Source: Arachis hypogaea (lineage: Eukaryota; Streptophyta; Magnoliopsida; Fabales; Fabaceae). Taken from it: 64,000 bases of DNA. The position numbers were made by a program, and so were the translations under genes. Shown piece after piece: positions 938-59,067 of this stretch; position 1 is the first letter of the stretch, and each line of letters starts with the position of its first letter. The stretch spans positions 96,441,837 to 96,505,836 of the forward strand of contig NC_092038.1 in NCBI RefSeq assembly GCF_003086295.3, written 5' to 3'. The notes below the pieces were generated by a model. That model had not been told where the DNA came from, did no database searches, and was given only the letters and a program-made list of their open reading frames with translations.

Positions 938-956
938 TGGCGCCGTTGCCGGGGAT
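938..956 (+). other. Primer binding site (tRNA-Asp type), element 1
   Basis: TGGCGCCGTTGCCGGGGAT begins six bases after the LTR end. It is complementary to the 3' end of plant tRNA-Asp, the usual minus-strand primer of Athila-lineage elements. It fixes the 5' LTR end and the element's orientation. Confidence 0.93.
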
Positions 957-1576: not shown

Positions 1577-4093
1577 ATGGACTCAAGTGGGACTAATCAG
1601 TCCAAAAGGACTCTGGGGTCATATGCTAACCCCATTACAGCTGCATATGGGAGTAGCATCTGTACACCTCCCATCAAAGCAAGCAGCTTTGAACTAAATC
1701 CTCAACTCATTATCATAGTGCAGCAAAATTGCCAGTATTCCGGTCTTCCACAGGAAGAACCTACTGAGTTTCTGGCACAGTTTTTACAAATTGCTGACAC
1801 AGTACATGATAAAGAGGTTGATCAGGATGTCTACAGACTATTACTGTTTCCATTTGCTGTAAAAGATCAAGCTAAAAGGTGGTTGAATAACCAACCTACA
1901 GCAAGCATAAAGACATGGAAACAGTTGTCAGACAAATTCCTGAATCATTTTTACCCTCCAAAAAGGATGACACAGTTAAGACTGGACATCCAAGGCTTTA
2001 AACAAGAGGATAATGAATCCCTTTTTAATGCTTGGGAGAGGTATAGAGGTATGTTAAGGAAATGTCCCTCTGAAATGTTTTCAGAGTGGGTACAGTTAGA
2101 CATTTTCTACTATGGGCTTACAGAAAAAGCTCAGATGTCTTTAGACCACTCAGCTGGTGGATCTATACACATGAGGAAGACAATTGAAGAAGCTCAAGAG
2201 CTTATAGACACTGTTGCTAGAAACCAATATTTATACTCTAGCAATGAGTTCTCTCCAAAAGAGGAGGTCATGGCAGTAGTCACTGACCCTAGTCCTCAAG
2301 AACAGATAACAGAGCTTAATCAACAATTGCTCCTGATAACAGAACAGTTAGCAGATTTTAAAGAGATACTCAATGAAACTAAAGTTGCTAACAAGAGCAT
2401 AGAACTGCAGTTAAATCAAGCAAAACAGCAATTATCCAAACAGATAACAGAGGAATGTCAAGCAGTTCAATTGAGGAGTGGGAAGACCCTGAATAACACT
2501 GCTCAGAAGAGTAAAAAGCCAAACAAGGAACAATTGACAGAGGACAACCAAACCACTGTGCAAAATCCCTCTGAGGACAGTAAGAGCCCAGAGAGGAATA
2601 TTGTTGGCGTTCAAACGCCAGAAAGGGAAGGAAAGCTGGCGTTAAACGCCCATTCCTTGCCCAGTTCTGGCGTTCAAACGCCAGAAAGGGGAGAGAAGTT
2701 GGCGTTTAACGCCCAAACTTCACCCATTCCTGGCGTTCAAACGCCAAGGGAGACTCAGACACCTGAGAGTGCTGACAGTAATCCCTCTAACAAGGCTTCT
2801 TCAACCACTTCTGTAAGGAATAAACCTGCAGCATCTAAGGTTGAAGAATATAAAGCCAAGATGCCTTATCCTCAAAAACTCCGCCAAGCGGAACAGGATA
2901 AGCAATTTGCCCGCTTTGCAGACTATCTAAGGACCCTTGAAATAAAGATTCCGTTTGCAGAGGCACTTGAGCAAATACCTTCTTATGCTAAGTTCATGAA
3001 AGAGATCTTAAGTCATAAGAAGGATTGGAGAGAAACTGAAAAAGTGTTTCTCACTGAAGAATGCAGTGCAGTCATATTAAAGAGCTTACCAGAAAAGCTT
3101 CAAGATCCAGGAAGCTTTATGATACCATGCACATTAGAAGGTGCTTGCACTAAGACATCTCTATGTGATCTTGGAGCAAGCATCAATCTAATACCTGTAT
3201 CCACTATCAGAAAGCTTGGGTTGACTGGCGAAGTCAAACCAACCCGGATATGCCTCCAACTTGCTGATGGCTCCGTTAAATACTCATCAGGCATAATTGA
3301 GGACATGATTGTCAAGGTTGGGCCATTTGCCTTTCCCACTGACTTTGTGGTGCTGGAAATGGAGGAGCACAAGAGTGCAACTCTCATTCTAGGAAGACCT
3401 TTCCTAGCAACTGGACGAACTCTCATTGATGTACAAAAGGGGGAAGTAACCTTGAGAGTCAATGAGGATGAGTTCAAGTTGAATGCTGTGAAAGCTATGC
3501 AGCATCCAGACACACCAATTGACTGCATGGGCGCTGACATCATTGACTCTCTGGTAGAAGAGATCAATATGGCTGAGAGCCTAGAATCAGAGCTTGAGGA
3601 CATCTTCAAGGATGCCCAACCTGATCAAGAAGAACTAGAGGAGGCAAAGGAATTTTCGAAAATTCCTCAGGAGGAGGATAAGCCTCCCAAGCCTGAACTC
3701 AAACCATTACCATCATCCTTGAAATATGCATTTCTGGGAGAGGGTGACACTTTTCCAGTGATTATAAGCTCTGCTTTAAACTCACAGGAAGAGGAAGCAC
3801 TGATTCAAGTGCTGAGGACGCACAAGACAGCTCTTGGGTGGTCCATAAGTGATCTTAAGGGCATTAGCCCAGCTAGATGCATGCACAAGATCCTGTTGGA
3901 GGATAATGCCAAACCAGTGGTCCAACCACAGAGGAGGCTAAATCCTGCCATGAAGGAGGTGGTGCAGAAAGAGGTCACTAAATTACTAGAGGCTGGGATT
4001 ATTTATCCTATTTCTGATAGCCCCTGGGTGAGCCCTGTCCAAGTTGTTCCCAAAAAGGGAGGCATGACAGTGGTTCATAATGAAAAAAAATGA
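1577..4093 (+). CDS. gag: Gag and aspartic protease polyprotein, element 1
   Basis: About 838 codons. I start at the ATG at 1577 because the aligned start in copy C (47219) is there and the upstream in-frame codons are low-complexity leader. A Retrotrans_gag capsid domain covers about residues 85-215 ([32 protein letters not shown]). No CCHC zinc knuckle is visible. A Gln-rich segment and an in-frame palindrome array follow, then a conserved Athila pre-protease region ([19 protein letters not shown]) and a retropepsin-like domain with [11 protein letters not shown] near residue 531 and [11 protein letters not shown] near 605. The frame ends in a run of eight A at 4083-4090, where copy C has seven and reads through into RT. 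One extra A therefore appears to separate gag-protease from pol; an assembly error is possible. Confidence 0.92.
2604..2747 (+). repeat. In-frame palindromic word array inside gag
   Basis: Five words of the form GGCGTT-N-AACGCC, with T/GGCG starts at 2605, 2637, 2668, 2700 and 2731 (spacing 32, 31, 32, 31). They encode alternating GVQTP and (A/F)NA(H/Q) peptides, a 63-nt, 21-residue double unit. Outside coding sequence the same word is spaced at 31. Confidence 0.88.
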
Positions 4094-6584
4094 ACTGGTT
4101 CCTACAAGGACAGTCACAGGGTGGCGCATGTGTATTGACTACAGAAGGCTCAATACAGCCACCAGAAAGGATCATTTTCCTTTACCATTCATAGACCAAA
4201 TGCTAGAAAGACTAGCTGGTCATGATTATTACTGCTTTTTGGATGGCTATTCAGGCTACAACCAAATTGCAGTAGACCCTCAGGACCAAGAGAAAACAGC
4301 ATTCACCTGCCCTTCAGGCGTGTTTGCCTACAGAAGAATGCCTTTTGGTCTGTGCAATGCACCTGCAACCTTTCAGAGGTGCATGCTCTCTATCTTCTCA
4401 GATATGGTAGAGAAATTTCTGGAAGTCTTCATGGATGACTTTTCAGTATATGGAGACTCATTTAGCTCCTGTCTTAATCACCTAGCACTTGTCTTGAAAA
4501 GATGCCAAGAGACTAACCTGGTTTTAAACTGGGAGAAATGTCACTTTATGGTGACTGAAGGAATTGTCCTTGGGCACAAAATTTCAAGCAAGGGAATAGA
4601 GGTGGATAAGGCAAAGGTAGAGGTAATTAAAAAATTACCACCACCTGCCAATGTTAAGGCAATCAGAAGCTTTCTGGGGCATGCAGGATTTTACAGAAGG
4701 TTTATAAAGGATTTTTCGAAAATTGCAAAACCTCTGAGTAATCTGTTAGCTGCTGACACACCATTTGTGTTTGACACACAGTGTCTGCAGGCATTTGAGA
4801 CCCTGAAAGCTAAGTTGGTCACAGCACCAGTTATCTCTGCACCAGATTGGGCATTACCATTTGAATTAATGTGTGATGCCAGTGATCATGCCATTGGTGC
4901 AGTGTTGGGACAAAGGCATAATAAACTTCTGCACGTCATTTATTATGCTAGTCGTGTTCTAAATGACGCACAGAAGAACTACACAACAACAGAAAAAGAG
5001 TTACTTGCAGTGGTCTATGCCATTGACAAGTTTAGATCCTATCTCGTGGGATCCAAAGTGGTTGTGTACACTGACCATGCTGCTCTTAAATATCTACTCA
5101 CAAAGCAGGATTCAAAACCCAGGCTCATTAGATGGGTGTTGCTTCTGCAAGAGTTTGATATAGAAATAAGAGACAGAAAAGGGACAGAGAACCAAGTAGC
5201 AGATCATCTGTCCCGAATAGAACCAGTAGCTGGGGCGTCCCTCCCTTCTACTGAGATCTCAGAGACTTTCCCAGATGAGCAACTATTTGCCATTCAGGAA
5301 GCTCCATGGTTTGCAGATATTGCAAATTTTAAAGCTGTGAGGTTCATACCCAAGGAGTACAGTTACATGCAGAGAAAGAAATTAATTTCAGATGCCAAGT
5401 ACTACCTCTGGGATGAACCATATCTCTTTAAGAGATGTGCTGACGGAGTGATCCGCAGGTGTGTACCCAGAGAAGAAGCACAGAGGATCCTATGGCACTG
5501 CCATGGATCACAGTATGGAGGACATTTTGGAAGTGAGCGAACAGCCACTAAAGTCCTCCAATGTGGCTTCTACTGGCCTACTCTCTATAAAGATTCCCGA
5601 GAGTTTGTGCGTAACTGTGACAGTTGCCAAAGAGCTGGTAATCTGCCTCATGGATATGCCATGCCTCAACAAGGGATATTAGAGATAGAGCTGTTTGATG
5701 TATGGGGAATTGATTTCATGGGGCCATTCCCACAATCATACTCAAACACTTACATTCTGGTGGCAGTGGACTATGTATCTAAGTGGGTAGAAGCAATTGC
5801 TACACCCACTAATGATACTAAGACTGTACTGAAATTCCTCCAGAAGAACATTTTCAGCAGATTTGGCGTTCCCAGAGTGCTAATTAGTGATGGGGGAACT
5901 CATTTCTGCAATAAACAGCTACACCTTGCTATGGTCAGATATGGAATTAGCCACAAAGTGGCAACTCCGTATCATCCACAGACAAATGGGCAAGCAGAAG
6001 TCTCTAACAGAGAGCTAAAAAGAATCCTAGAACGGACTGTAATGTCCCGAAGAAAGGATTGGGCAAAGAGCTTGGATGATGCTCTGTGGGCATACAGAAC
6101 AGCATTCAAGACTCCTATAGGTACCTCTCCATACCAATTGGTGTATGGGAAGGCCTGTCATTTGCCTGTGGAACTGGAACATAAAGCCTACTGGGCAACC
6201 AGATTCCTAAACATGGATGCACAGTTAGCTGGTGAGAAAAGACTGCTCCAGCTAAATGAGCTAGAAGAGTTCAGACTCAATTCCTTTGAAAATGCAAAAA
6301 TTTATAAGGAAAAGGCAAAGAAGTGGCATGACAAGAGATTGTCAACCAGAGTCTTTGAGCCAGGACAAAAAGTTCTGCTCTTCAACTCTAGGCTCAAACT
6401 GTTTCCAGGAAAACTCAAATCCCGTTGGAGGGGTCCGTATGTGATTACAGGAGTGTCACCATATGGATATGTTGAGCTTCAGGATATTGATTCTGATAAG
6501 AAGTTCATTGTTAATGGACAGAGAATCAAACATTACCTTGAAGGAAACTTTGAGCAGGAATGCTCACAACTGAGACTTGAGTGA
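4080..6584 (+). CDS. pol: Reverse transcriptase-RNase H-integrase, element 1
   Basis: An 834-codon open frame, +1 relative to gag-protease. RT has [29 protein letters not shown] and the catalytic MDD at residues 118-120. RNase H has [13 protein letters not shown] near 265, [10 protein letters not shown] near 330 and ADHLSRIE. Integrase has an HHCC zinc region (about 471-520), then GIDFMGPF with D near 545, ISDGG with D near 604, and E near 640 in [10 protein letters not shown], giving D,D35E spacing. A C-terminal SH3-like region ([10 protein letters not shown] to IKHYLE) ends the protein. No chromodomain is present. Apart from the upstream frameshift the frame is intact. The internal ATG at 4080 lies in the frameshift overlap and is probably not a native start. 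Confidence 0.94.
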
Positions 6585-6596
6585 TTCTCAGTGAAA

Positions 6597-6643
6597 GTCC
6601 AGCTAAAGACAGTAAAGAAGCGCTTGCTGGGAGGCAACCCAGT
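6597..6643 (+). promoter_or_regulatory. Two-hairpin RNA module downstream of the pol stop, element 1
   Basis: Begins 12 nt after the TGA at 6582-6584. HP1 is GTCCAGCTAAAGAC (6597-6610; 3 bp). A 15-nt linker ends in AAGCGCTT. HP2 is GCTGGGAGGCAACCCAGT (6626-6643; stem CTGGG/CCCAG plus a G-U pair, loop AGGCAA). Five other elements in the window carry the same 14+15+18 arrangement with compensating stem changes. The structure comes from reading paired bases; its function is unknown. Confidence 0.8.
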
Positions 6644-6745
6644 CATTAGTAGGTTGTATGATTAGTTCTTACAGAGGCAAATATCAAAAATGAAGGAATT
6701 CACAGAGTTACAGAAGGATTCAGCTCAAAAAGTAGAGAAAATGAG

Positions 6746-7050
6746 CTTACTGGCGAAAAAACGCCAGTAAGGGGCATTTTGGGCGTTAAACGCCAGAATG
6801 GGTACCATTCTGGGCGTTTAACGCCAGGAATGGTGCCATTTTGGGCGTTAAACGCCAGAATGGGCACCATTCTGGGCGTTTAACGCCAGGTGTGCAGCAT
6901 CACTGGGCGTTCAGAAAAACGCCCAGTGAGGAAGGCTTTCTGGCGTTTAACGCCAGCCAGGGTACCTGGCTGGGCGTTAAACGCCCAAAAGGGGTGCCAA
7001 GTGGGCGTTAAACGCCAGAATGGGTGCCATTCTGGGCGTTTAACGCCAGA
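6746..7050 (+). repeat. 31-nt phased palindromic word array, element 1
   Basis: The array opens with a hairpin whose 10-bp arms CTTACTGGCG / CGCCAGTAAG flank six A. Then GGGCGTT(T/A)AACGCC-type words start near 6781, 6812, 6843, 6873, 6905, 6941, 6972, 7003 and 7034: spacing 31, 31, 30, 32, 36, 31, 31, 31. Linker sequences differ while the period holds. It is noncoding and lies between the hairpin module and ORF3. Confidence 0.93.
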
Positions 7051-7398: not shown

Positions 7399-7433
7399 GC
7401 TTGAGGACAAGCAAAACCTCTAAGTTTGGTGTG
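7399..7433 (+). promoter_or_regulatory. Internal copy of the 3' priming-region motif, upstream of ORF3
   Basis: GCTTGAGGACAAGC, a short spacer and then TAAGTTTGGTGTG closely copy the sequence just before the 3' LTR (9522-9557). The Feral-like element, C and B also keep a copy in front of ORF3 or its remnant. It could be a central priming site or an element for ORF3 expression; the role is inferred. Confidence 0.65.
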
Positions 7434-7470
7434 CTTTTCCGTGATCACTAAGCCAAGATTCATCAAGATC

Positions 7471-8583
7471 ATGGCTCCTAAGGGAAAACAAACCAACTCA
7501 AGAGGAAAGAAAGAGACTAATCCAAAGAATCTTTGGAATGAAGAGAAGTTCTTAACCAAAGAACATGAAGACCATTATCATAAAATAATGGGTCTGAGGT
7601 CAGTGATCCCGGAAGTTAAATTTGATCTGAAAGAAGATGAATATCCGGAGATCCAAGAGCAAATTCGAAACAGAGGTTGGGAAGTTCTGACCAATCCTGA
7701 GACAAAGGTTGGAAGGAACATGGTTCAGGAATTCTACTCTAATCTGTGGCTGACAGATAAGCAGAGAATGACTGGAACTGCTTACCATACCTACAGAACC
7801 ATGGTCAGAGGGAAAGTTATGTACTTCCATCTAGACAAAATAAGAGAAATCTTCAAACTACCTCAACTACAAGATGATCCTGATTCCTTCAATAGGAGGA
7901 TGGTGAGAGTAGATAAAGGGCTGGATCAAGTTCTAGAGGACATATGCCTCCCTGGGACTAAGTGGATAACCAATTCAAAGGGTGTCCCAAACCAACTCAA
8001 GAGGGGAGACCTCAAGCCAATTGCAAGAGGTTGGCTAGACTTTATTGGGCGTTCCATATTGCCCACTAGCAACCGTTCTGAGGTCACCATCAAGAGAGCA
8101 GTGATGATTCATTGCATTATGCTTGGAAAAGAAGTGGAGGTTCATCATGTGATTGCTTGTGAGATCTACACAATTGCAAATAAGAATTCCACTGAAGCCA
8201 AATTGGCCTACCCAAGCTTGATTTCCTTGCTCTGTAAAGAGGCTGGGGTGAAGATGGGAGTAGATGAGTTCATACCCATTGAACACCCAATCACCAAGAA
8301 GTCAATGGAAGGACAAGTGCAAGACAACTCCATCAAGAGGAGGGCGCAGGAATTCCTCCCTGAATTCCCAAGAATTGACTACTGGTCCAGCCTAGAAGCA
8401 TCTATTAACAAGCTGCAAGAGACTATGGAGCAACTGAAGGAAGAACAGCAGAATCAGAACTGCATGCTCTGCAAATTGCTGAAGGAGCAAGAGAAGCAGG
8501 GGCGTGAAATCCAAGAACTGAAACGCCAAAAGTTCTCCTCTCAAGCTGAGGGAGCATCTACTTCTCAAAATCAAGGTTGTTGA
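7471..8583 (+). CDS. ORF3: plant transposon-protein domain with C-terminal coiled coil
   Basis: 370 codons from ATG 7471 (MAPKGKQ). I prefer this to the upstream in-frame ATG at 7426 because ORF3 remnants in C, B and the Feral-like element also begin at the MAPKG position. The central part (FYSNLWLTDKQRMTGTAYHT, VRGKVMYFHLDKIREIFKLP, KRAVMIHCIMLGKEVEVHHV) resembles the putative plant transposon protein domain of Athila-type elements (Pfam Transposase_32, from memory). Residues about 310-355 (LQETMEQLKEEQQNQ, EIQELKRQK) look like a coiled coil. No signal peptide or membrane segment is visible, so although it sits where env-like genes lie, the sequence does not support an envelope glycoprotein. 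It is intact here and largely deleted elsewhere in the window. Confidence 0.85.
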   Translation: MAPKGKQTNSRGKKETNPKNLWNEEKFLTKEHEDHYHKIMGLRSVIPEVKFDLKEDEYPEIQEQIRNRGWEVLTNPETKVGRNMVQEFYSNLWLTDKQRMTGTAYHTYRTMVRGKVMYFHLDKIREIFKLPQLQDDPDSFNRRMVRVDKGLDQVLEDICLPGTKWITNSKGVPNQLKRGDLKPIARGWLDFIGRSILPTSNRSEVTIKRAVMIHCIMLGKEVEVHHVIACEIYTIANKNSTEAKLAYPSLISLLCKEAGVKMGVDEFIPIEHPITKKSMEGQVQDNSIKRRAQEFLPEFPRIDYWSSLEASINKLQETMEQLKEEQQNQNCMLCKLLKEQEKQGREIQELKRQKFSSQAEGASTSQNQGC

Positions 8584-9557: not shown

Positions 9558-11087
9558 TGATGAGCGGATAATTTGTATGCTTTTTGGCATTGTTTTTAGT
9601 ATGTTTTTAGTATGATCTAGTTAGTTTTTAGTGTATTTTTATTAGTTTTTAGCTAAAATTCACTTTTCTGGACTTTACTATGAGTTTGTGTGTTTTTCTG
9701 TGATTTCAGGTATTTTCTGGCTGAAATTGAGGGTCCTGAGCAAAAATCTGATTCCGAGACCAAAAAGGACTGCAGATGCTGTTGGATTCTGACCTCCCTG
9801 CACTCGAAGCGGATTTTCTGGAGCTACAGAAGCCCAATTGGCGCGCTCTCAACGGCATTGGAAAGTAGACATCCTGGGCTTTCCAGCAATATATAATAGT
9901 CCATACTTTGCCCAAGATTTGATGGCCCAAACCGGCGCTCAAAGTCACCTACAGAAATTCCAGCGTTAAACGCCGGAACTGGCATGAAATTTGGAGTTAA
10001 ACGCTCAAACTGGCATAAGAACTGGCGTTTAACTCCAGAAAAGGTCTCTACACGAAATTCCTTCATTGCTCAGCCCAAGCACACACCAAGTGAGCCCGGA
10101 AGTGGATTTTTCTGTCATTTACTCATTTCTGTAAACCTTAGGATACTAGTTTACTACTTATAGGATCTTTTGACATTGTATCAGTACCTTATGCAACTTT
10201 TTGACAACCTTATGACATTGTACACGTTTTTCCACAGCATGAGTCTCTAAACCCCATGGTTGGGGGTGAGGAGCTCTGCTGTGTCTTGATGGATTAATGC
10301 AATTACTACTGTTTCTCATTCAATCATGCTTGCTTCCATTCTAAGATAATACTTGTTCTTAACCCGGATGAATGTGATGATCCGTGACAATCATCATCAT
10401 TCTCAACCATGAATGTGTGATTGACAACCACCTCCGTTCTATCTTAGATTAAGTAGTTATCTCTTAGGTTCTTTAACCGGAATCTTCGTGGTATAAGCTA
10501 GACTGATGGCGGCATTCAAGAGAATCCGGAAGGTCTAAACCTTGTCTGTGGTATTCTGAGTAGGATTCAATGACTGAATGACTGTGACGTGCTTCAATCT
10601 CCTGAAGGCGGGGCGTTAGTGACAGACGCCAAAAGAATCACTGGATTCTACTCCGGTCTGATTGAGAATCGACAGATGGAATGCCGTGCCGTGACAGGGC
10701 ATTAGGAATCGTTCCAATGAGAGGATGGGAGGTAGCCATTGACAACGGTGAAACCCTACATACAGCTTGCCATGGAAGGAGACTCGCGTGACTGAAGAAG
10801 AAGACAGTAGGAAAGCAAAGATTCAGAAGATGGAGCATCTCCAAACCTCAACCTATTCTCCATTACTGCAAAACAAGTAATCATTTCATGTTCTTTTGCT
10901 TTTCACAATCAATCCTGATAATTTCTGATATCCTGACTAAGATTTACAAGATAACCATAGCTTGCTTCAAGCCGACAATCTCTGTGGGATCGACCCTTGC
11001 TCACGCAAGGTATTACTTGGACGACCCAGTACACTTGCTGGTTAGTTGTGCGGGATTGCAAAAGTGTGATTGCAATTTCGTGCACCA
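9558..11087 (+). repeat. 3' LTR of element 1 (1530 bp)
   Basis: Runs from TGATGAGCGG to GTGCACCA. It contains a conserved block ending TTTCTGTGATTTCAGG (about 9666-9712), a TATA-like ATATATAATAG near 9890, and palindromic GGCGTT/AACGCC words at about 9933, 9961, 9992 and 10023. Matching the 5' LTR fixes the 3' boundary. The element's transcript should start and end in its LTRs; I cannot place the start site confidently. Confidence 0.94.
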
Positions 11088-11092
11088 ACCAT

Positions 11093-11357: not shown

Positions 11358-12938
11358 CTACAAGCTTTGATGGAGTTCTACACACACCATGGGCTCCCAA
11401 AGTTGATCCTCATGTGTTCCCGGATCCCATATTTTGTTTTCACACCCATCTCCAAGTTGATTATCATTAGTCCATGTGGGTGGTGAACAAAATGAATTCT
11501 GAAAGAAATGACCAAACTTCATCCTAGACCTAAGCAATCTAGTTCTACACCAAACCTTGCAATTAAGCTTTGAGCATGCAACCATAATGAACCTAGAATG
11601 ATGTTTCCAACCACTAACCATCTCCATTTTACTCTTAAAGCCACAAATATGTCTAAGTTGACCATCCATCTCAAGAAAACCATATTCAAGGGGAATAATA
11701 AGGCTTAAGTATAAGGAATTTACCCACTTGAATAAAAGAATGGATGGTGGTGGCTTGAGAGATATCTCCAATGTGCTAGCAAGCTTTACTTCCTTGTGTT
11801 CTTCCTTGGTTACCTCCACCTCTTCACAAACTTCTTCGCTTTCAATCCTTTGTTCATCATTTTCATCTAACTCTTCTCCATCACTCAAGTCATAAGTTGG
11901 AGGACGAGAGAAATCTACCTCCACATCACTTTCAAATTCATTGGGAGAAGGTTCTTCAAATTCAAATGATTCTTCACCAAGAAGATTAGATGCATGATCT
12001 TCATCACTAAGGGAACTCAATTCTTGCTTCACTCCCTCCAAGTCTTCGTTCAAAATTTGTTTTGGAGGTTGTATACATTCCTCCTCAACAACAAATTCAA
12101 TCTTTTTGGAGGTATGTTCTATGATTTTAGCTTCCCATGGAGGTTCCGCATCTCCTAAGTCTTCAACAACTTCTTCCTCTTCTTCAATGATCATATGCTC
12201 CTCCAATTGCTCTAATACAAAATAACATTCCTCATTCTCCACCGGAGTTTCCAATCTCTCATTCATGTTATGCTCTTCATTTGATTCTCTACATGTAATC
12301 ATGGGAGTTTTTTGAGTGTCCAGGCATCGAGAGGCTAAAGTGCTTACTACCTTAGTCATGGTAGCCACAAATTCTAGTGTCTCCTTTTGCATTTCTCTTT
12401 GCCCTTGAAGTATAAAGCCAAGGGTTTCATCCATTGAGGATTGGGGTGGATAAGAGGGTTCATTGTCTTGGAGAGAGGGTTCATAATAGGAAGGTGGTTC
12501 TTCTTGGTGAGGATATGGTGGTGGTGTGTATTGAGGTGGTTCTTGGGAGTATTGATATTGGAATGGTGGTTCCATGTATAGCTCATGTGGTTCAAAAGGT
12601 GGTTGATATGGTGGAAATGGGTGAAGGTCATATGGAGGTGTTTGGTGAAAAGGGGCTTGTGAGTATGGTTGAGGATCATGTTGAAGAGTGGGTTCATATG
12701 CATATGGTGGTGGTTCTTGAAAGTCACAAGGAGATTCACCATAGCCATTGGATTGGTATGCATCATAAAATGGCTCTTCTTCATAGTGCATTGGTGGAGG
12801 TTGTTGCCATGAGGATTGATCATATGCATATGGCTCCACCCACCTTTGATTGTCCCATCCTTGATACATCTCTTCATTGTAATCTCCACTTCCTACAACA
12901 TAGTTGTAATCACACTCATAGCTAAAGTGAGAATTCAT
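11358..12938 (-). CDS. Pro/Tyr/Gln-rich ORF of non-autonomous element D1, function unknown
   Basis: About 526 codons, starting MNSHFSYECDYNY; an in-frame ATG lies eight codons upstream. The first ~190 residues are rich in P, Y, Q and E with loose repeats (PPPYAYEP, PPFQYQYSQEPPQYTPPPY). A middle region around FILQGQREMQKETLEFVATM could be helical, a long acidic stretch follows, and the C-terminal third (GWKHHSRFIMVACSKLNC, RTRLLRSRMKFGHFF) is basic and Cys-containing. I see no gag, protease, RT or integrase motif. Element F carries a decayed relative (YGQSSWQSPP versus YDQSSWQQPP). Remaining open over this length suggests selection or youth. It may be a divergent structural protein; I cannot assign a function. 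Confidence 0.7.
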   Translation of the reverse strand: MNSHFSYECDYNYVVGSGDYNEEMYQGWDNQRWVEPYAYDQSSWQQPPPMHYEEEPFYDAYQSNGYGESPCDFQEPPPYAYEPTLQHDPQPYSQAPFHQTPPYDLHPFPPYQPPFEPHELYMEPPFQYQYSQEPPQYTPPPYPHQEEPPSYYEPSLQDNEPSYPPQSSMDETLGFILQGQREMQKETLEFVATMTKVVSTLASRCLDTQKTPMITCRESNEEHNMNERLETPVENEECYFVLEQLEEHMIIEEEEEVVEDLGDAEPPWEAKIIEHTSKKIEFVVEEECIQPPKQILNEDLEGVKQELSSLSDEDHASNLLGEESFEFEEPSPNEFESDVEVDFSRPPTYDLSDGEELDENDEQRIESEEVCEEVEVTKEEHKEVKLASTLEISLKPPPSILLFKWVNSLYLSLIIPLEYGFLEMDGQLRHICGFKSKMEMVSGWKHHSRFIMVACSKLNCKVWCRTRLLRSRMKFGHFFQNSFCSPPTWTNDNQLGDGCENKIWDPGTHEDQLWEPMVCVELHQSL

Positions 12939-17950: not shown

Positions 17951-17997
17951 ATTGGTTTCTCTCCCAACAAGTACTCTTTTAACGTCATTAGCTTGAC
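17951..17997 (-). promoter_or_regulatory. Two-hairpin RNA module, T element
   Basis: On the minus strand HP1 GTCAAGCTAATGAC (17997-17984, 4 bp), a 15-nt linker, then HP2 GTTGGGAGAGAAACCAAT (17968-17951, 4 bp plus a G-U pair). HP1 begins exactly 12 nt after the TAG at 18012-18010. Confidence 0.78.
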
Positions 17998-28146: not shown

Positions 28147-29836
28147 CTGACGGTTCATCTTGTTGCTCTGATTAGGTAATTTTCTTTTTTTTTATTTTCA
28201 AAAAAAAAATTTCAAAAATCTTTCAAAAATTTATCACCTGTTTTCAAAAATTTTCAGAGTTTTTAAGAATGAATTCTAGAGTTTCATGTAACATGTTGAA
28301 GCCTGGTTGGCTGTAAAGCCATATCTAATTCTTGGACCGGAGCTTTTGACTAACATTACATGATTCCTGGAATTCTGATTGAGGACTTTGGATTCATTAC
28401 TTCCTTTTTCCAAAATATGTTTTCAAAAAATTTATTACAAAAATCCAAAAAAAATTTATAAAATCATAAAATAAAAAATATTTTGTGTTTCTTGTTTGAT
28501 TCTTGAGTCAATTTTTAAGTTTGGTGTCAATTGCATGTTTTTAAAATTTATGCATTTTTTTCGAAAAATTCATGCATGGTGTTCTTCATGATCTTCAAGT
28601 TGTTGGTAAGTCTTCTTGTTTGATCTTGATGTTTTCTTATTTTGTGTCTTTTGTTGTTTTTTATGTGCATTTTTGCATTCATAGTGTCTAAGCATTAAAG
28701 ATTTCTAAGTTTGGTGTCTTGCATGTTTTCTTTGCATCAAATTTTTCAAAAATATGTTCTTGATGTTCATCATGATCTTCAAAGTGTTTTTGGTATTCAT
28801 CTTGACATTCATAGTGTTCTTGCATGCATCATTGGTTTTGATCAAAAAATTTTCATGTTTTGGGTCATTTTTATGTTTTTCTCTCTCATCATTAAAAATT
28901 CAAAAAAAAATATCTTTTCCTTATTTCTCTCAAAATTTCGAAAATTTGAGTTGACTTAGTAAAAAATTTTTAAAACTTAGCTATTTCTTATAAGTCAAGT
29001 CAAATTTTCAATTTTAAAAATCTTATCTTTTCAAAAATTTTTCAAAAATCAAATCTTTTTCATTTTTCTTACTATTTTTCGAAAATTTTTAATTTGAAAT
29101 TTAAAATCTTTTTCTTATCTTTAATTCATGATTTTCAAAGGCTTTACTAACAATTAATGTGATTGATTCAAAAATTTGAAGTTTGTTACTTTCTTATTAA
29201 GAAAGGTTCAATCTTTAAATTCTAGAATCATATCTTTTAGTTTCTTGTTAGTCAAGTAATCAATTTTGATTTTAAAAATCAAATTATTTTCAAATATCTT
29301 TTCCATCATATCTTTTTAATTAAATCTTTTTTCAATCATATCTTTTTATCTTTTTCAAAAAAAATTTTGATTTCAAAATATATTTTCTAACTTCTTATCT
29401 TCTCAAAATTGATTTTCAAATCTTTTTCAACTAACTAATTGACTTTTTGTTTGTTTCTTATCTTTTTCAAAACCACCTAACTACTTTTCCTTCTCTAATT
29501 TTCGAAAATCACTTCCCTCTTTTTCAAAATTTTCTTAATTAACTAATTGTTTCAATTTTTAATTTTAATTTTATTTCTTCTCTTAATTTTTGAAAATCAC
29601 TAACTCTTTTTCAAAATTTATTTTCAAATTTCTCCCTCTCTCATCTCTTTATATTTATTTATTCATCTACTAACACTTCTCTTCTACTCAAGAATTTGCA
29701 CCTATCTTCCCCTTTGTGTTTGGAGTCTTAACTCTTTTCCTTCTTTTATCCATTTCTTCTTCTATTAACATAAAGGAGTCTCTCTACTATGGTAAAGAGG
29801 ATCCCCATTATTATTTTCTGTTCGCTTCTTTTTCAT
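28147..29836 (+). other. Long untranslated leader of the Feral-like element
   Basis: About 1.7 kb of AT-rich, low-complexity sequence with TTTTCAAAAATTTT and TTCGAAAA runs. AAGTTTGGTGT occurs at 28517-28527 and 28707-28717. No gene seen. Confidence 0.7.
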
Positions 29837-32073
29837 ATGAGCAGGAGCAAGGATAAGAATATTCTTGTTGAAGCAGATCCTGAACCTGAAAGGACTCTGA
29901 AGAGGAAACTAAGAGAAGCTAAACAATCCAGAGATAACCTTACAAAAATTTTCGAAAAGGAAGAGGAGATGGCAGCCGAAAATAATAATACAAGGAGGAT
30001 GCTTGGTGATTATACTACACCTACTTCCAAGTTTGATGGAAGAAGCATCTCAATCCATGCCATTGGAGCAAACAATTTTGAGCTGAAACCTCAAATAGTT
30101 GCTCTAATTCAACAGAACTGCAAGTTCCATGGACTTCCATCAGAAGATCCCTACCAGTTTTTAACTGAGTTCTTGCAGATCTGCGAGACTGTTAAGACTA
30201 ATGGAGTAGATCCTGAAGTCTACAAGCTCATGCTTTTCCCTTTTGCTGTAAGAGACAGAGTTAGAACATGGTTGGACTCACAACCTAAAGATAGCCTGGA
30301 CTCCTGGGATAAGCTGATCACGGCCTTCTTGGCTAAGTTCTTTCCTCCTCAAAAGCTGAGCAAGCTTAGAGTGGATGTTCAGACCTTCAAACAAAAAGAT
30401 GGTGAATCCCTCTATGAAGCTTGGGAAAGATACAAGCAGATGACCAAAAGATGTCCTTCTGACATGCTTTCAGAATGGACCATTCTGAATATATTCTATT
30501 ATGGTCTATCTGAGTTCTCTAAGATGTCACTGGACCATTCTGCAGGTGGATCCATTCACCTAATGAAAACGCCTATAGAAGCTCAAGAACTTATTGACAT
30601 GGTTGCAAATAACCAGTTAATGTACACTTCTGAGAGAAATTCCGTGAATAATGGGACGCCTCAAAGGAAGGGAGTTCTTGAAATTGATTCACTGAATGCC
30701 ATATTGGCTCAGAACAAAATGTTGACTCAACAAGTTAACATGATTTCTCAAACTCTGAATAGATGGCAAAATGCATCTAACAGTACTAAAGAGGCATCTT
30801 CTGAAGAAGAAGCTTATGATCCTGAGAACCCTGAAATAGCAGAGGTAAATTACATGGGTGAACCTTATGGAAACATCTATAATTCATCATGGAGAAATCA
30901 TCTAAATTCCCATGGAAGGATCAACAAAAGCCTCAACAAGGCTTTAATAATGGTGGAAGAAATAGGCTCAGCAATAGCAAGCCTTTTCCATCATCTTCTC
31001 AGCAACAGACAGAGAATTCTGAGCAGAGCCCCTCTAACTTAGCAAACATAGTCTCTGATCTGTCTAAGGCCACTTTAAGTTTCATGAGTGAAACAAGATC
31101 CTCCATCAGAAATTTGGAGGCACAAGTGGGCCAGCTGAGTAAGAAAATTATTGAAACTCCTCCAAGTACTCTCCCAAGCAATACTGAAGAGAATCCAAAA
31201 AGAGAGTGCAAGGCTATTGACATAATCAACATGGCCGAACATAAGGAGGAAGGAGAGGACATGAATCCCAATGAAGAAGACCTCATAGAACGTCTCTCAA
31301 GCAAGAAGGAGTTCCCTATTGAGAACCTAAAGGAATCTGAGGCTCATATAGAGACCATAGAGATTCCATTAAACCTCCTTCTACCATTCATGAGCTCTGA
31401 AGACTATTCTTCCTCTGAAGAGGATGAAGATGTAAAGCAAGTTGCTCAATATCTAGGAGCCATCATGAAGCTGAATGCCAAATTGTTTGGTAATGAGACT
31501 TGGGAAGGTGAACCTTCCTTGCTCATTAGTGAACAAGATACATGGGTTCAGCAATCTTTACCTCAAAAGAGACAAGATCCTGTCAAATTCTTAATACCCT
31601 ATACCATAGGCACCATGACCTTTGAAAAGGCTCTGTGTGACCTAGGGTCAGGCATAAATCTGATGCCACTCTCTATAATGGAGAAGCTGGGGATCATTAA
31701 GGTACAACCTGCTATATTCTCATTACAAATGGCAGACAAGTCAGTAAGACAAGCTTATGGGTTGGTAGAGGACGTGTTAGTAAAGGTTGAAGGCCTTTAC
31801 ATCCCTGCTGATTTCATAATCTTAGACACTAGAAAGGAGGAGGATGAATACATCATCCTTGGAAGACCTTTCCTAGCCACATCATGAGCTATGATAGATG
31901 TTAACAGAGGAGAATTAGTCCTTCAATTGAATGGGGACTACCTTGTGTTTAAGACCCAAGGGTGTTCTTCTGTATACATGGAGAGGAAGCATGAAAAGCT
32001 TCTCTCAGTACAAAGTCAAACAAAGGCCCGACAATCAAACTCTAAGTTTGGTGTTGGGAGTCTACAACATTGA
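29837..32073 (+). pseudogene. gag: Gag-protease of the Feral-like element, one frameshift and one stop
   Basis: Start taken at MSRSKDKNILVEAD; an upstream in-frame ATG at 29789 adds a hydrophobic-looking leader-derived stretch. The capsid domain includes YKLMLFPFAVRDRVRTWL, AWERYKQMTKRCPSDM and [21 protein letters not shown] frameshift between about 30870 and 30960 moves the reading to the frame of 30889-31887, which holds IRNLEAQVGQLSK, then protease CDLGSGINLMP (D codon at 31639) and [15 protein letters not shown] at 31885 interrupts the protease; the frame reopens as MIDVNRGELVLQL and ends at 32073. AAGTTTGGTGT is embedded in the last codons (NSKFGVG). RT and integrase are absent. Confidence 0.88.
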
Positions 32074-32107: not shown

Positions 32108-32154
32108 GTCAAGCTATTGACATTAAAGAAGCGCTTATTGGGAGACAACCCAAT
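32108..32154 (+). promoter_or_regulatory. Two-hairpin RNA module, Feral-like element
   Basis: HP1 GTCAAGCTATTGAC (5-bp stem, loop GCTA), a 15-nt linker, HP2 ATTGGGAGACAACCCAAT (6-bp perfect stem). The outer HP2 pairs are A-U and U-A where X has G-C and U-A and element 1 has G-U and C-G. It begins 34 nt after the final stop. Confidence 0.82.
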
Positions 32155-35831: not shown

Positions 35832-35878
35832 GTCAATCTTATGACATTAAAAGAGCGCTTGTTGGGAGGCAACCCAAC
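35832..35878 (+). promoter_or_regulatory. Two-hairpin RNA module, element X
   Basis: HP1 GTCAATCTTATGAC (4-bp stem, extendable by a flanking T-A pair), a 15-nt linker, HP2 GTTGGGAGGCAACCCAAC (6-bp perfect stem, loop AGGCAA). HP1 starts exactly 12 nt after the TAA stop. Confidence 0.83.
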
Positions 35879-46235: not shown

Positions 46236-46271
46236 TGGCGCCGTTGCCGGGGATTGTTCGAGTTTGAACAA
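46236..46271 (+). other. Primer binding site and leader hairpin of C
   Basis: TGGCGCCGTTGCCGGGGAT (46236-46254) equals that of element 1. TTGTTC / GAACAA (46254-46259 and 46266-46271) forms a 6-bp stem with loop GAGTTT, as in the Feral-like element. Confidence 0.88.
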
Positions 46272-50200: not shown

Positions 50201-52236
50201 ATCGTGACTGAAGGAATTGTCCTTGGGCACAAAATCTCGAACAAGGGAATAGAGGTGGATCAAGCTAAGGTAGAGGTAATTGAAAAATTACCACTACCTG
50301 CCAATGTTAAGGCAATCAGAAGCTTTCTGGGGCATGCAGGATTCTATAGGAGGTTTATAAAGGATTTTTCAAAAATCGCCAGACCTCTGAGTAACCTGCT
50401 AGCTGCTGACACGCCATTTATCTTTGATAAAGAGTGTCTGCATGCATTTGAGACTCTGAAAGCTAAATTGGTCACAGCACCAATCATCTCTGCACCAGAC
50501 TGGACATTACCATTTGAATTGATGTGTGATGCCAGTGACCATGCCATTGGTGCAGTATTGGGACAGAGGCATGACAAGCTTCTGCACGTCATTTACTATG
50601 CCAGTCGTGTTTTAAATGACACACAGAAGAATTACACAACCACAGAAAAAGAGCTGCTTGCAGTGGTTTACGCCATTGACAAGTTCAGATCCTATTTGGT
50701 AGGATCAAAAGTGATTGTGTACACTGATCATGCTGCTCTTAAATATCTATTCACAAAGCAGGATTCAAAACCCAGACTCATCAGATGGGTGTTGCTTCTG
50801 CAAGAGTTTGATATAGAAATAAGAGATAGAAAAGGAACAGAGAATCAAGTAGCAGATCACCTGTCCCGAATAGAACCAGTAGAAGGGGCTTCCCCCCTCT
50901 CACTGAGATCTCTGAAACCTTTCCGGATGAGCAACTCTTTGCCATCCAGGAAGTGCCATGGTTTACAGATATTGCAAACTACAAGGCAGTGAGATTCATA
51001 CCCAAAGAGTACAGTAGGCTGCAATCAAAGAAATTGATCACAGATGCAAAGTACTATCTCTGGGATGAACCATATCTCTTCAAGAGATGTGCAGACGGAG
51101 TAATCCGTAGATGTGTGCCTAAGGAAGAAGCACAGAAAATTCTATGGCACTGCCATGGATCACAGTATAGAGGACATTTTGGAAGTGAGCGAACAGCCAC
51201 AAGAGTCCTCCAATATGGCTTCTACTGGCCTACTCTCTATAAAGATTCCCGAGCGTTTGTACTTAATTGTGACAGTTGCCAAAGATCTGGCAATCTGCCT
51301 CACAGTTATGCCATGCCTCAACAAGGGATCTTGGAGATTGAGTTGTTTGATGTATGGGGTATTGACTTTATGGGACCTTTCCCACCATCATACTCAAACA
51401 CTTTTATTCTGGTGGCAGTGGATTATGTATCCAAATGGGTGGAGGCTATTGCAACACCCACTAATGACACTAAAACAGTGTTAAAATTTCTCCAGAAACA
51501 CATCTTCAGCAGATTTGGTACCCCTAGAGTATTAATCAGTGATGGGGGCACTCATTTCTGCAATAAACAGCTTTACTCTGCTTTGGTTTGTTATGGAGTT
51601 AGCCACAAGGTAGCCACTCCATACCATCCACAGACTAATGGGCAAGCTGAAGTCTCAAATAGAGAACTCAAAAGAATCCTGGAACGGACTGTAATTAACC
51701 GTAGAAGGGATTGGGCAAGAAGCTTGGATGATGCTCTGTGGGCATACAGAACATCATTCAAGACCCCTATAGGGACCTCTCCATACCAGCTTGTGTATGG
51801 AAAGGCATGTCACTTGCTAGTGGAACTGGAACACAAGGCCTACTGGGCAACCAGATTCCTGAACCTTGATGCCAAGTTAGCTGGAGAAAAACGATTGCTT
51901 CAGTTAAATGAGCTAGAGGAATTTAGACTCAATGCTTTCGAGAATGCAAAAACATACAAAGAGAAAGCGAAAAGATGGCATGATAAGAAATTGTCATCCA
52001 GAGTCTTTGAGCCGGGGCAGAAAGTTCTGCTATTTAATTCTAGGCTCAAATTATTCCCTGGGAAATTAAAATCCCGGTGGAGAGGTCCGTATGTGATTAC
52101 AAGTGTATCACCATATGGATACGTAGAGCTTCAGGATAATGACTCTAACAAGAAGTTCATTGTTAATGGACAGAGAATTAAACATTATCTTGAAAGTAAT
52201 TTTGAGCAAGAATGCTCAAAACTGAGACTTGATTAG
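47219..52236 (+). pseudogene. pol: Gag-pol of C, with four premature stops and one frameshift
   Basis: Colinear with element 1 from [19 protein letters not shown] to the tag at 52234. Stops interrupt one frame at 47633 (CAA to TAA), 48206 (AAG to TAG), 49679 (TGG to TAG) and 49862 (AGA to TGA). A single-base loss near 50890, in the linker before integrase, shifts the frame, and integrase is then open from 50953. Here the protease-RT junction has seven A and reads through, which is why I treat the eight-A run in element 1 as an insertion. Protease ([11 protein letters not shown]), RT MDD, RNase H and the integrase catalytic residues are all still recognisable. No functional full-length product is expected. 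Confidence 0.92.
48229..48402 (+). repeat. Palindromic word array inside gag, element C
   Basis: Words start at 48229, 48260, 48291, 48322, 48354 and 48385 (31, 31, 31, 32, 31), several mutated. It corresponds to 2604-2747 of element 1, with one extra unit. Confidence 0.85.
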
Positions 52237-52248
52237 AGCTCAGTAATG

Positions 52249-52295
52249 GTCCAGCTAAAGACAATAAAGAAGCGCTTGCTGGAAGGCAACCCAGC
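52249..52295 (+). promoter_or_regulatory. Two-hairpin RNA module, element C
   Basis: HP1 GTCCAGCTAAAGAC, a 15-nt linker, HP2 GCTGGAAGGCAACCCAGC. The outermost HP2 pair is G-C where element 1 has G-U; one inner pair is lost (A opposite C). HP1 begins exactly 12 nt after the TAG stop. Confidence 0.82.
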
Positions 52296-57419: not shown

Positions 57420-57572
57420 TTAACCACCTCAGTCATGGTGGCCGCTGCTCCCTCTTCAGGCTGTGCTCTTTCATGGAGATGATTCACTTCCCTTTGGTGC
57501 CATTGATGATAATATAAACTGAGATCTTGCTCTGCAACACCAAACTTAAAAGTTTGCTTGTCCCCATGCAAG
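57420..57572 (-). pseudogene. ORF3 remnant of B with upstream priming-type motif
   Basis: Minus strand: GGGGACAAGC and TTAAGTTTGGTGTTG (57572-57535), then ATGGCACCAAAGGG from 57503 in the MAPKG context; the frame decays within about 30 codons. The upstream ORF reading through palindromic words (57590-57763) looks fortuitous. Confidence 0.65.
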
Positions 57573-57890: not shown

Positions 57891-59067
57891 CTAAAGGATA
57901 ATTCTGGTTGGGTTTCCTCCCAACAAGTGCTTCTTTACCATCATTAGCTTAACGATTGATTGTTGAATTTTCTTCCTCTTCTTCCAGTTGGTTAAGAAAA
58001 ATGACTTCAAGGGAGAAGAGGAGAATATTAGTTCCCTTCGATTTAAATTTCTCCTAACAAGCTTTCTTTTATGGTTATTAGCTTGATTCATAGTGCTTGT
58101 TGGGATAGGAGTTGGATTGCTTTTTGTTGACCTTCTTTCTTTCGTGGATGTGGTCTTTTGTTCCTTGGACATAATCCCCTTTTCAATGCTTTCCTTGGTT
58201 GCCTTCACTTCTCTGATTTCAGGACTTTGGTGTAGTGTGATGGGTAGAGTGTACCCTTTATCAAGAACTTCTTGAATTGATGGTTCAATGAACTCACCCT
58301 CTATGCCACTCTATGCTTCATTGGAGTGAAAATTCCTATAATTGTTTTCCTTCCTTACAACCTCCTTTTTCATTGGGGTTTTACTTGGTACAGGGGCCTC
58401 TTTTTCTTGCTCTTGCACTTCTAACTCTTCATCTTTTTCAGGGTTTGAGTGTTGTGCAGTATTTGGAAGGACCCCTTCATTAAGAACTTCTTAGATTGAT
58501 GGTGCAATCAAATCAACCCCCATGTAGCTCTCTGATTCACTAGGGGATGGACTCCTTTGAATGATTCCCTCACATTCTTTTGTAGGGATTTGCATTGCTT
58601 CTCTCATGAGGGAGTTTGGTTGTTCCTCTGTCCAATGCTTGGTAATCACCTCCACATGTCCCTCTATATACTTCACACTCATTCTCATATTATGTATGCA
58701 ACTTTGATTTATCTCCCTTAATTCTTTCATGGTAAGCTCTAAAGCTGATAGTTCTTGATATGAATACGAAGATTCTGGCTCTTGGTATGAATAGAGGGAT
58801 GATGGTTCTTAGTATGAGTAAGCAGAGTGAGGATGGAAATTTTTGCAAAATTTTATCTGCTATTTGCTGCAATTCTTGGCAGGCAAGATCAAAAGATGAT
58901 GGTTCTTGATATGAACAAGAAGATGATGGTTCTTGATAGATAGAGTATAGAACATTGACATCTCTTTGCTCTTGACCTTGCCAACCAAAATCCGGGTAGT
59001 TCCTCCATCCACAATAATATGAACCACTCCTTGGGTGTGAGTAGTAACGCATGTGATCTCTCTCCAT
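57891..59067 (-). pseudogene. Ser/Glu/Lys-rich ORF of non-autonomous element B, broken
   Basis: From about 59067 (MERDHMRYYSHPRSGSYY) through a SIYQEPSSSCSYQEPSS repeat and CQELQQIADKILQKF, then frameshifts and stops to a Lys/Thr/Ser-rich part (PTPIPTSTMNQANNHKRK). Two copies of a segment like EPSIQEVLDKGYTLP occur. No gag, protease or RT motif is visible. The 3' end runs over the two-hairpin module. Unknown function; it resembles the ORFs of D1 and F only in composition and placement. Confidence 0.6.
57907..57953 (-). promoter_or_regulatory. Two-hairpin RNA module, element B
   Basis: Minus strand: HP1 GTTAAGCTAATGAT (pairs G-U, U-A, U-G, A-U), a 15-nt linker, HP2 GTTGGGAGGAAACCCAAC (6-bp perfect stem). 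A degenerate second copy without a stem lies at about 58040-58085. Confidence 0.8.

Follow-up and report, generated by a model that had tools for sequence, protein, structure and literature searches.

The window analysed here is a stretch of 64,000 nucleotides of Arachis hypogaea DNA, in which six elements (E1, C, a Feral-like element, X, T, and B) share a short module. Element E1 is bounded by an LTR pair (1-932 and 10157-11088) that is 99.5% identical, and its Pfam domains follow the order gag-protease-RT-RNaseH-integrase, which is the arrangement of Athila-type Ty3/gypsy elements. Its primer binding site TGGCGCCGTTGCCGGGGA (938..955, plus strand), also found at 46236, presumably fits tRNA-Asp and is of the kind used by the Athila/Calypso/Diaspora lineage. 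In the available part of one report tRNA-Asp is named, without its sequence, as the primer for Diaspora and Calypso (PMC1142308). This plant Ty3 lineage is alike in gag-pol order and in the extra 3' frame of some members. The RT-RNaseH-integrase open frame of E1 (4068..6584, plus strand) ends 12 nt 5' of the module, and farther downstream lies the stop-to-stop ORF3 (7405..8583, plus strand), a match to PF20167 (Putative plant transposon protein). Element C is a relative of E1 with the same domains in broken frames. As queries at E 1e-6 the RT-integrase frame of E1 found no window match outside E1 and C, and ORF3 found none outside E1. The carrier elements were described in the initial annotation as having lost RT and integrase; since E1 and C retain these domains, in one open frame and in broken frames, respectively, the loss is limited to the other four elements at most. 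A side observation in the Feral-like element (window Feral) is that Rfam snoR71 (RF00097) matches the minus strand at 30362-30469 with 44.2 bits (gathering 40), antisense inside a gag frame, so that the snoR71 family may hold retrotransposon sequence.

The module has 47 nt, and its proposed layout of a segment HP1 of 14 nt, a linker of 15 nt, and a hairpin HP2 of 18 nt was confirmed with correct coordinates and strands in six of six window copies. On the plus strand it occupies 6597..6643 in E1 (HP1 6597-6610, linker 6611-6625, HP2 6626-6643), 52249..52295 in C (HP2 52278-52295; pol frame stop 52234-52236), 32108..32154 in the Feral-like element (HP2 32137-32154), and 35832..35878 in X (HP2 35861-35878), and on the minus strand 17951..17997 in T (HP2 17968-17951) and 57907..57953 in B (HP2 57924-57907), where the upstream frame 58310-57891 runs through the module. 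The linker was said to end in (A)AGCGCTT or a near variant, the actual sequences in T and B being AGTACTT and AGCACTT. The pairing of HP2 holds overall in the window, except that the pair A6/C13 is broken in C and the sixth pair is lost in T (G6/A13). In the B copy two of the four HP1 pairs are wobble pairs and HP1 is absent from the single-sequence fold. HP2-like sequence with at most 3 mismatches occurs six times in the 64-kb window versus 0.59 expected from shuffles, and none of 100 shuffles reached six. The folding energy of the six copies is not unusual (z from -0.13 to -2.48); the case for structure is a comparative one.

When the six copies, each with 2.5 kb of flank at both ends, were compared by blastn (E 1e-3), a match at the module was found in 8 of the 15 element pairs, the other 7 having none at that cut-off. 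In six pairs (E1-Feral, E1-X, C-Feral, Feral-T, B-X, and B-T) the match is confined to the module within 7 bases on either side, in the T-X pair it runs about 75 bases further upstream, and E1 and C are relatives aligning throughout; the remaining matches between elements are gag-like stretches, short repeats, and LTR sequence. The module is thus an isolated island in 6 of 15 pairs, which bears out the suggestion that it is conserved amid diverged surroundings. No Rfam 15 family reaches its gathering score at the module, the sole weak match nearby being FuFi-1 (12.3 bits versus 59.6) at 6662-6776, outside it, and searches of viral contigs with the module, pol, or ORF3 gave no useful match. In the accessible parts of the literature on Athila hairpins, splice acceptors, and stem-loops, on the sequence itself, and on the Athila/Calypso/Diaspora lineage, neither the motif nor a hairpin of this kind was found, and an earlier mention is possible.

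HP2 was assessed with patterns that leave the 3' arm free and require a base other than T at position 2 or 3. Position 2 was not T at 11,651 places in the assembly (reversed control 0), and among 100 listed of these the pair 2-17 was C-G in 81, A-T in 13, and unpaired in 6, i.e., Watson-Crick in 94 of 100. Position 3 was not T at 1,054 places (control 0), and among 100 listed it formed C-G with its partner in 84 and was unpaired in 16 (C-A 10, G-A 5, and A-A 1). The compensations fall in separate families, pair 2 being C-G in E1/C-like copies and A-T in the CATGGG family, and pair 3 being C-G in the GTCGGG family; they amount to few independent events, about 3–5 by family, the copies are related, and the 100-copy lists are the first by position. 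In an alignment of 48 modules (47 distinct) the covariation score was above 500 of 500 shuffles and all slid versions, two weaker covariation measures were matched by 23 and 42 of 500 shuffles, and 30 of the 31 cells with changes on both sides lay inside HP2, the aligned loci having been chosen by patterns that fix both arms or demand a 5'-arm change, with frequencies unlike those of the genome. The loop stays close to AGGCAA and hardly changes. The terminal pair is G-T in 25 and A-C in 1 of 47 rows, and pairs 2–6 show 7 G-T versus 11 A-C; the wobble asymmetry that would tell the strand is therefore limited to the terminal pair. On these comparative grounds HP2 is judged to be a genuine stem, as its proposed covariation had suggested.

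HP1, in contrast, did not behave as a covarying stem. Its C3 is changed at 739 places (reversed control 0 and 2), and among the 100 listed copies, which include some displaced by an indel, the partner stays G12 in 94 (T-G 74, A-G 12, and G-G 8) and Watson-Crick pairing is found in only 2; moreover, the pair 4-11 is unpaired in E1/C-like copies. HP1 is apparently conserved as sequence, with a structure unsupported by covariation. Thus the view of the whole module as a cis-acting RNA held for HP2, by compensation and by the island of conservation, and failed for HP1 as a covarying stem. Dimerisation via the linker palindrome was also unsupported: the linker core AGCGCT without its C occurs at 3,244 places, and among the matches listed AGTGCT was found in 88 of 100, a predominance expected from CpG decay, versus 5 of 100 with AGTACT, the form that keeps self-complementarity. 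Two other candidates failed on inspection by eye, namely, a helix between the 5' side of HP1 and the 5' arm of HP2, as in the centroid fold of C, which misfits the CATGGG family, and a branch point in HP1, the motif of which is not kept in E1. When the 48 nt preceding the E1 module were folded, a further hairpin, HP0 (6569..6592, plus strand), was predicted, with a 7-bp stem ACTGAGA/TCTCAGT and the pol stop TGA (6582-6584) between its arms. The corresponding 48 nt had z from -1.4 to -5.8 in 22 distinct E1/C-like stretches, values partly due to a second hairpin in the pol end, and L046, L047, and L052 fold otherwise; over all 73 distinct stretches the mean z was -1.42 and the median -0.68, and values were near 0 in B-like copies. 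HP0 was rejected as a hairpin common to all families, its stems being weaker or absent outside the E1/C-like group, and its predicted presence in most E1/C-like stretches is a lead only.

The position of the module next to a stop codon was overlooked in the initial annotation. In a set of 103 loci, composed of 90 genome loci, the six window copies, L004 (described below), and six more loci, the longest open reading frame of at least 60 aa ends 5–30 nt upstream of the module in 87. In a like test using the nearest stop, performed on the first 97 loci, this was the case for 81 of 97 modules versus 329 of 4850 points (6.8%) placed at random within these loci. The distance from stop to module is 6–18 nt in E1/C-like loci (12 in 22 of 27), 9–27 nt in Feral-like loci (19 in 25 of 31), 9–11 nt in GTCGGG-like loci, where a stop is present in 18 of 26, 12 nt in the CATGGG family and T, 12–17 nt in X-like loci, and 15 nt in L004. 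The 16 loci without a stop in range are L021, L039, L059, L067, L081, L082, L084, L088, L089, L091, L092, L093, L094, window Feral, X, and B. The 87 stop-adjacent loci include examples of every stop codon and every frame. When reading is continued in the same frame, the following stop is met ahead of the module in 19 loci and within it in 3; in 62 it falls in the 150 nt beyond the module and in 3 still farther away. A role as read-through stimulator is disfavoured, since stops and frames vary and the next stop precedes the module in 19 of 87.

The X-like family, found at 1,810 exact places with a pattern that includes ten bases downstream, illustrates this position. Six X-like loci (L095-L100) are almost identical over the 120 nt that follow the module. 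On the other side, the frame before it matches integrase in L095-L097, gag in L098-L099, and the protease region in L100, with the stop 12–17 nt before the module each time. With nearly the same 3' DNA and three upstream gene contents, these loci look like linked autonomous and non-autonomous elements. In several pol-less families a tail resembling the last integrase residues is seen by eye before the stop. A purine run (GGAAGAAGAGGAAGAAAA or near) was also noted about 15–35 nt upstream of the module in L074, L084, L093, and B; in the available part of another study, Athila4 and Calypso are reported to have an additional polypurine tract (PMC2829016).

Downstream of the module the sequence is mostly T-rich, family averages of T content in the 60 nt after it being 0.39–0.60 versus 0.24–0.33 in the rest of the locus; the single copies in E1 and X have 0.30 (over 6644..6703, plus strand) and 0.40, respectively. 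A 3' splice-site-like sequence TTCTTACAG in this part of E1 ends at 6674 (P 0.08 versus shuffles). Short inverted units GGCGTTAAACGCC / GGCGAAAAAACGCC were observed farther downstream in E1 (at about 6740) and in L006.

In the 2.56 Gb host assembly there are 43,161 exact matches to the module core when three stem bases are left free (reversed control 0), 26,538 to a 24-mer composed of AGCGCTT and the first 17 bases of the HP2 of the X copy (reversed control 0), and 55,614 to the 18-base primer site. Linkage of module and primer site was examined for the 100 primer sites and 75 modules listed first on contig C1, up to 16.39 Mb. A same-strand primer site lies 0.8–8 kb upstream of 42 of the 75 listed modules, compared with 3 on the opposite strand and a shifted mean of 3.5, and among the matches listed the distances cluster at about 3.1, 3.7–4.1, and 5.3–6.0 kb, with one at 4.75. 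Conversely, the exact core is found 0.8–8 kb downstream of 43 of the 100 listed primer sites. According to this same-strand spacing among the matches listed, the module is a fixed part of several families carrying this primer site. Another repeated sequence of the same elements is the 11-mer AAGTTTGGTGT, with 22 copies in 64 kb, several of which lie in leader sequence past the primer site and in 3' regions (plus strand at 1058, 1146, 7422, 9545, 28517, 28707, 32044, 32798, 35949, 35998, 36188, 37389, 46428, 46754, 46823, 46913, 53077, and 54340; minus strand at 57547, 18291, 17881, and 17099).

Beyond the host, a pattern search of genome contigs gave four matches, and only L004 has the remaining module parts by eye, about 2 chance matches being estimated for this pattern in the contig collection. 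L004 includes an HP1-like segment, an 18-nt linker, and HP2 with the loop AGGCAA; by blastn against the window copies it matches X only (80% over 51 nt). A 175-codon open frame, for which no homologues were found, ends 15 nt before the module. The record is labelled Candidatus Burkholderia humilis, and positions 1-8000 of L004 hold a tnp2-type transposase, a Ty3-type gag, and a Tnp_DNA_bind transposase part, so that L004 is likely to be host contamination or a mixed contig. Its DNA presumably comes from the plant host of this leaf-nodule symbiont, which we take to be probably Psychotria.

The explanation preferred here, and put forward tentatively, is that the module may be a conserved cis-acting RNA element of the Athila-type LTR lineage which protects RNA stop-proximally from decay. 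A long stretch after a stop codon is a known trigger of nonsense-mediated decay. The RNA of the element would double as the polyprotein mRNA, in which the stop would be followed by kilobases of 3' RNA (about 3.6 kb to the 3' LTR in E1), and the module next to the stop would shield it from decay. The parts would be read in order as the main polyprotein stop, a gap of 6–27 nt, the conserved segment of HP1 and linker, HP2, and a mostly U-rich tract. Symmetrical arm changes, conservation, stop adjacency, and the T-rich tract are observed directly, and to these the proposal adds that RNA would be the acting molecule and that a protein would bind to the module. Protection from decay is preferred over the alternatives since this anatomy, with a stop in any frame, a conserved segment, a hairpin, and a U-rich tract, fits it better. 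Against it stand the loci that have no stop in range, the low T content after the E1 module, and the restriction of wobble asymmetry to the terminal pair of HP2, and stop adjacency could be a matter of simple inheritance, the module having been the first sequence after pol in the ancestor and having been kept by deletion derivatives.

Known systems offer partial parallels to such protection. In Rous sarcoma virus, according to the available parts of two reports, an element right after the gag stop (RSE) protects the message via PTBP1 on pyrimidine clusters and is inactive when moved to the middle or the far end of the 3'UTR (PMC4764554; PMC5580461). So far as these sources describe it, the RSE resembles the module in its place right after the main-frame stop of an unspliced RNA, in the kilobases of 3'UTR that follow, and perhaps in its clustered pyrimidines; it differs in being about 400 nt long and PTBP1-bound, whereas the module measures 47 nt, with some 60 nt of mostly U-rich sequence behind it, and has a fixed hairpin and a putative function. 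The tract behind the module is U-rich rather than made of CU clusters. Stop-proximal elements of Turnip crinkle virus protect plant viral RNA in a Nicotiana assay, and in the accessible text of that study a stable hairpin placed in the protective region abolished protection, while changing 19 pyrimidines to purines did not (PMC6277124). The module contrasts with that protective region, as far as it is described there, by keeping a hairpin and by counting pyrimidines in its argument; likewise, the viral elements act by lacking structure or by read-through, whereas the module has a hairpin and read-through is disfavoured for it. Conserved non-coding motifs beside genes are also described for Sireviruses among plant LTR elements; in the available part of the source, however, these belong to a different superfamily, and their palindromic boxes are repeated and located at the env gene and in the LTR (PMC2829016).

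The next best explanation, which must be called rather unlikely, is control of splicing at the 3' end of an intron whose removal would take out gag-pol to give an ORF3 (env-like) mRNA, the U-rich tract with AG being a 3' splice site and the hairpin tuning its use. The 3' splice-site-like sequences of several families fit this role as well as protection from decay: of the first 30 loci, all of them Feral-like, 29 have YAG/G after T-rich sequence 30–53 nt past the module, and with a crude 3' splice-site score six of the 18 sequences scored (window Feral, B, L005, L010, L052, and L080) reached P ≤ 0.05 versus shuffles, although the other 12 missed this level, e.g., T (0.955), L035 (0.83), and X (0.445). 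The leader of window Feral contains a donor candidate TTG/GTAAGT at 28606 with a score of 8.26 (top-1% cut 8.51), but no strong donor was found in the leaders, scored without the LTR, of E1 (best 0.89) or C (best 4.31), and the module is kept in elements without an ORF3 match. Earlier work, in its accessible parts, reports splicing of an env-like mRNA in barley Bagy2 and predicts acceptors for Athila (PMC7264820, PMC2829016).

It is likewise doubtful that the module serves genomic RNA as a signal for packaging, dimerisation, or export, needed by non-autonomous elements for their mobilisation in trans. Such a signal would suit its retention where the upstream frame matches only gag or protease, the core count being of the same order as that of the primer site, and the same-strand linkage of the two, and trans-mobilisation of pol-less Athila elements has been argued in the available text of one study (PMC2410132). 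However, it leaves the closeness to the stop codon without a reason, the linker palindrome failed as a dimer site, an exact module core is missing 0.8–8 kb downstream of 57 of the 100 listed primer sites, and the repeated motif AAGTTTGGTGT in leaders is an equally good candidate.

Translation control of ORF3 on unspliced RNA, by re-initiation or internal entry, is improbable. ORF3 (PF20167) does lie downstream in E1, L005, L063, and L035, but in E1 its open frame starts about 760 nt downstream, and several elements have no ORF3 match near the module. Such control alone, which the initial annotation had listed as possible, is unlikely since C, window Feral, T, X, and B keep the module with no ORF3 match in the window; the six X-like loci, whose family has an integrase-bearing branch, also showed no ORF3 match within 1.5 kb downstream. 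There is equally little likelihood that the module is a DNA-level inverted repeat, such as a protein site or a promoter of the downstream gene: the lack of a G-T excess over A-C in pairs 2–6 would agree with it, but with G-T in 25 of 47 rows the terminal pair is not that of a DNA palindrome, arm bases change symmetrically between families, and the place of the module follows the sense reading frame. A short conserved peptide is the least probable of all. In its favour, a single frame stays open across the module in 103 of 103 loci, and the L004 linker, 3 nt longer, keeps this frame. These loci are related, however, and do not count as independent cases; the upstream frame ends ahead of the module and is found in each of the three phases relative to it; HP2 arms change symmetrically; and the loop hardly changes even at third codon positions.

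In many plants a large share of the genome consists of LTR retrotransposons. To our knowledge, how long LTR-retrotransposon genomic RNA escapes decay as mRNA while serving as genome has been little studied. If protection from decay is the function, the module may be seen, in a broader proposal that is more tentative still, as an undescribed RNA family with more than 43,000 copies in one plant genome, probably shared with the distant plant lineage of L004, which would insulate the polyprotein stop of LTR retrotransposons from host mRNA surveillance and would be kept by non-autonomous families for their own RNAs. Being short, abundant, covarying, and linked to a stop, such an element makes the question of decay escape testable by simple reporters, and the module serves as a marker that ties autonomous families to those mobilised in trans.
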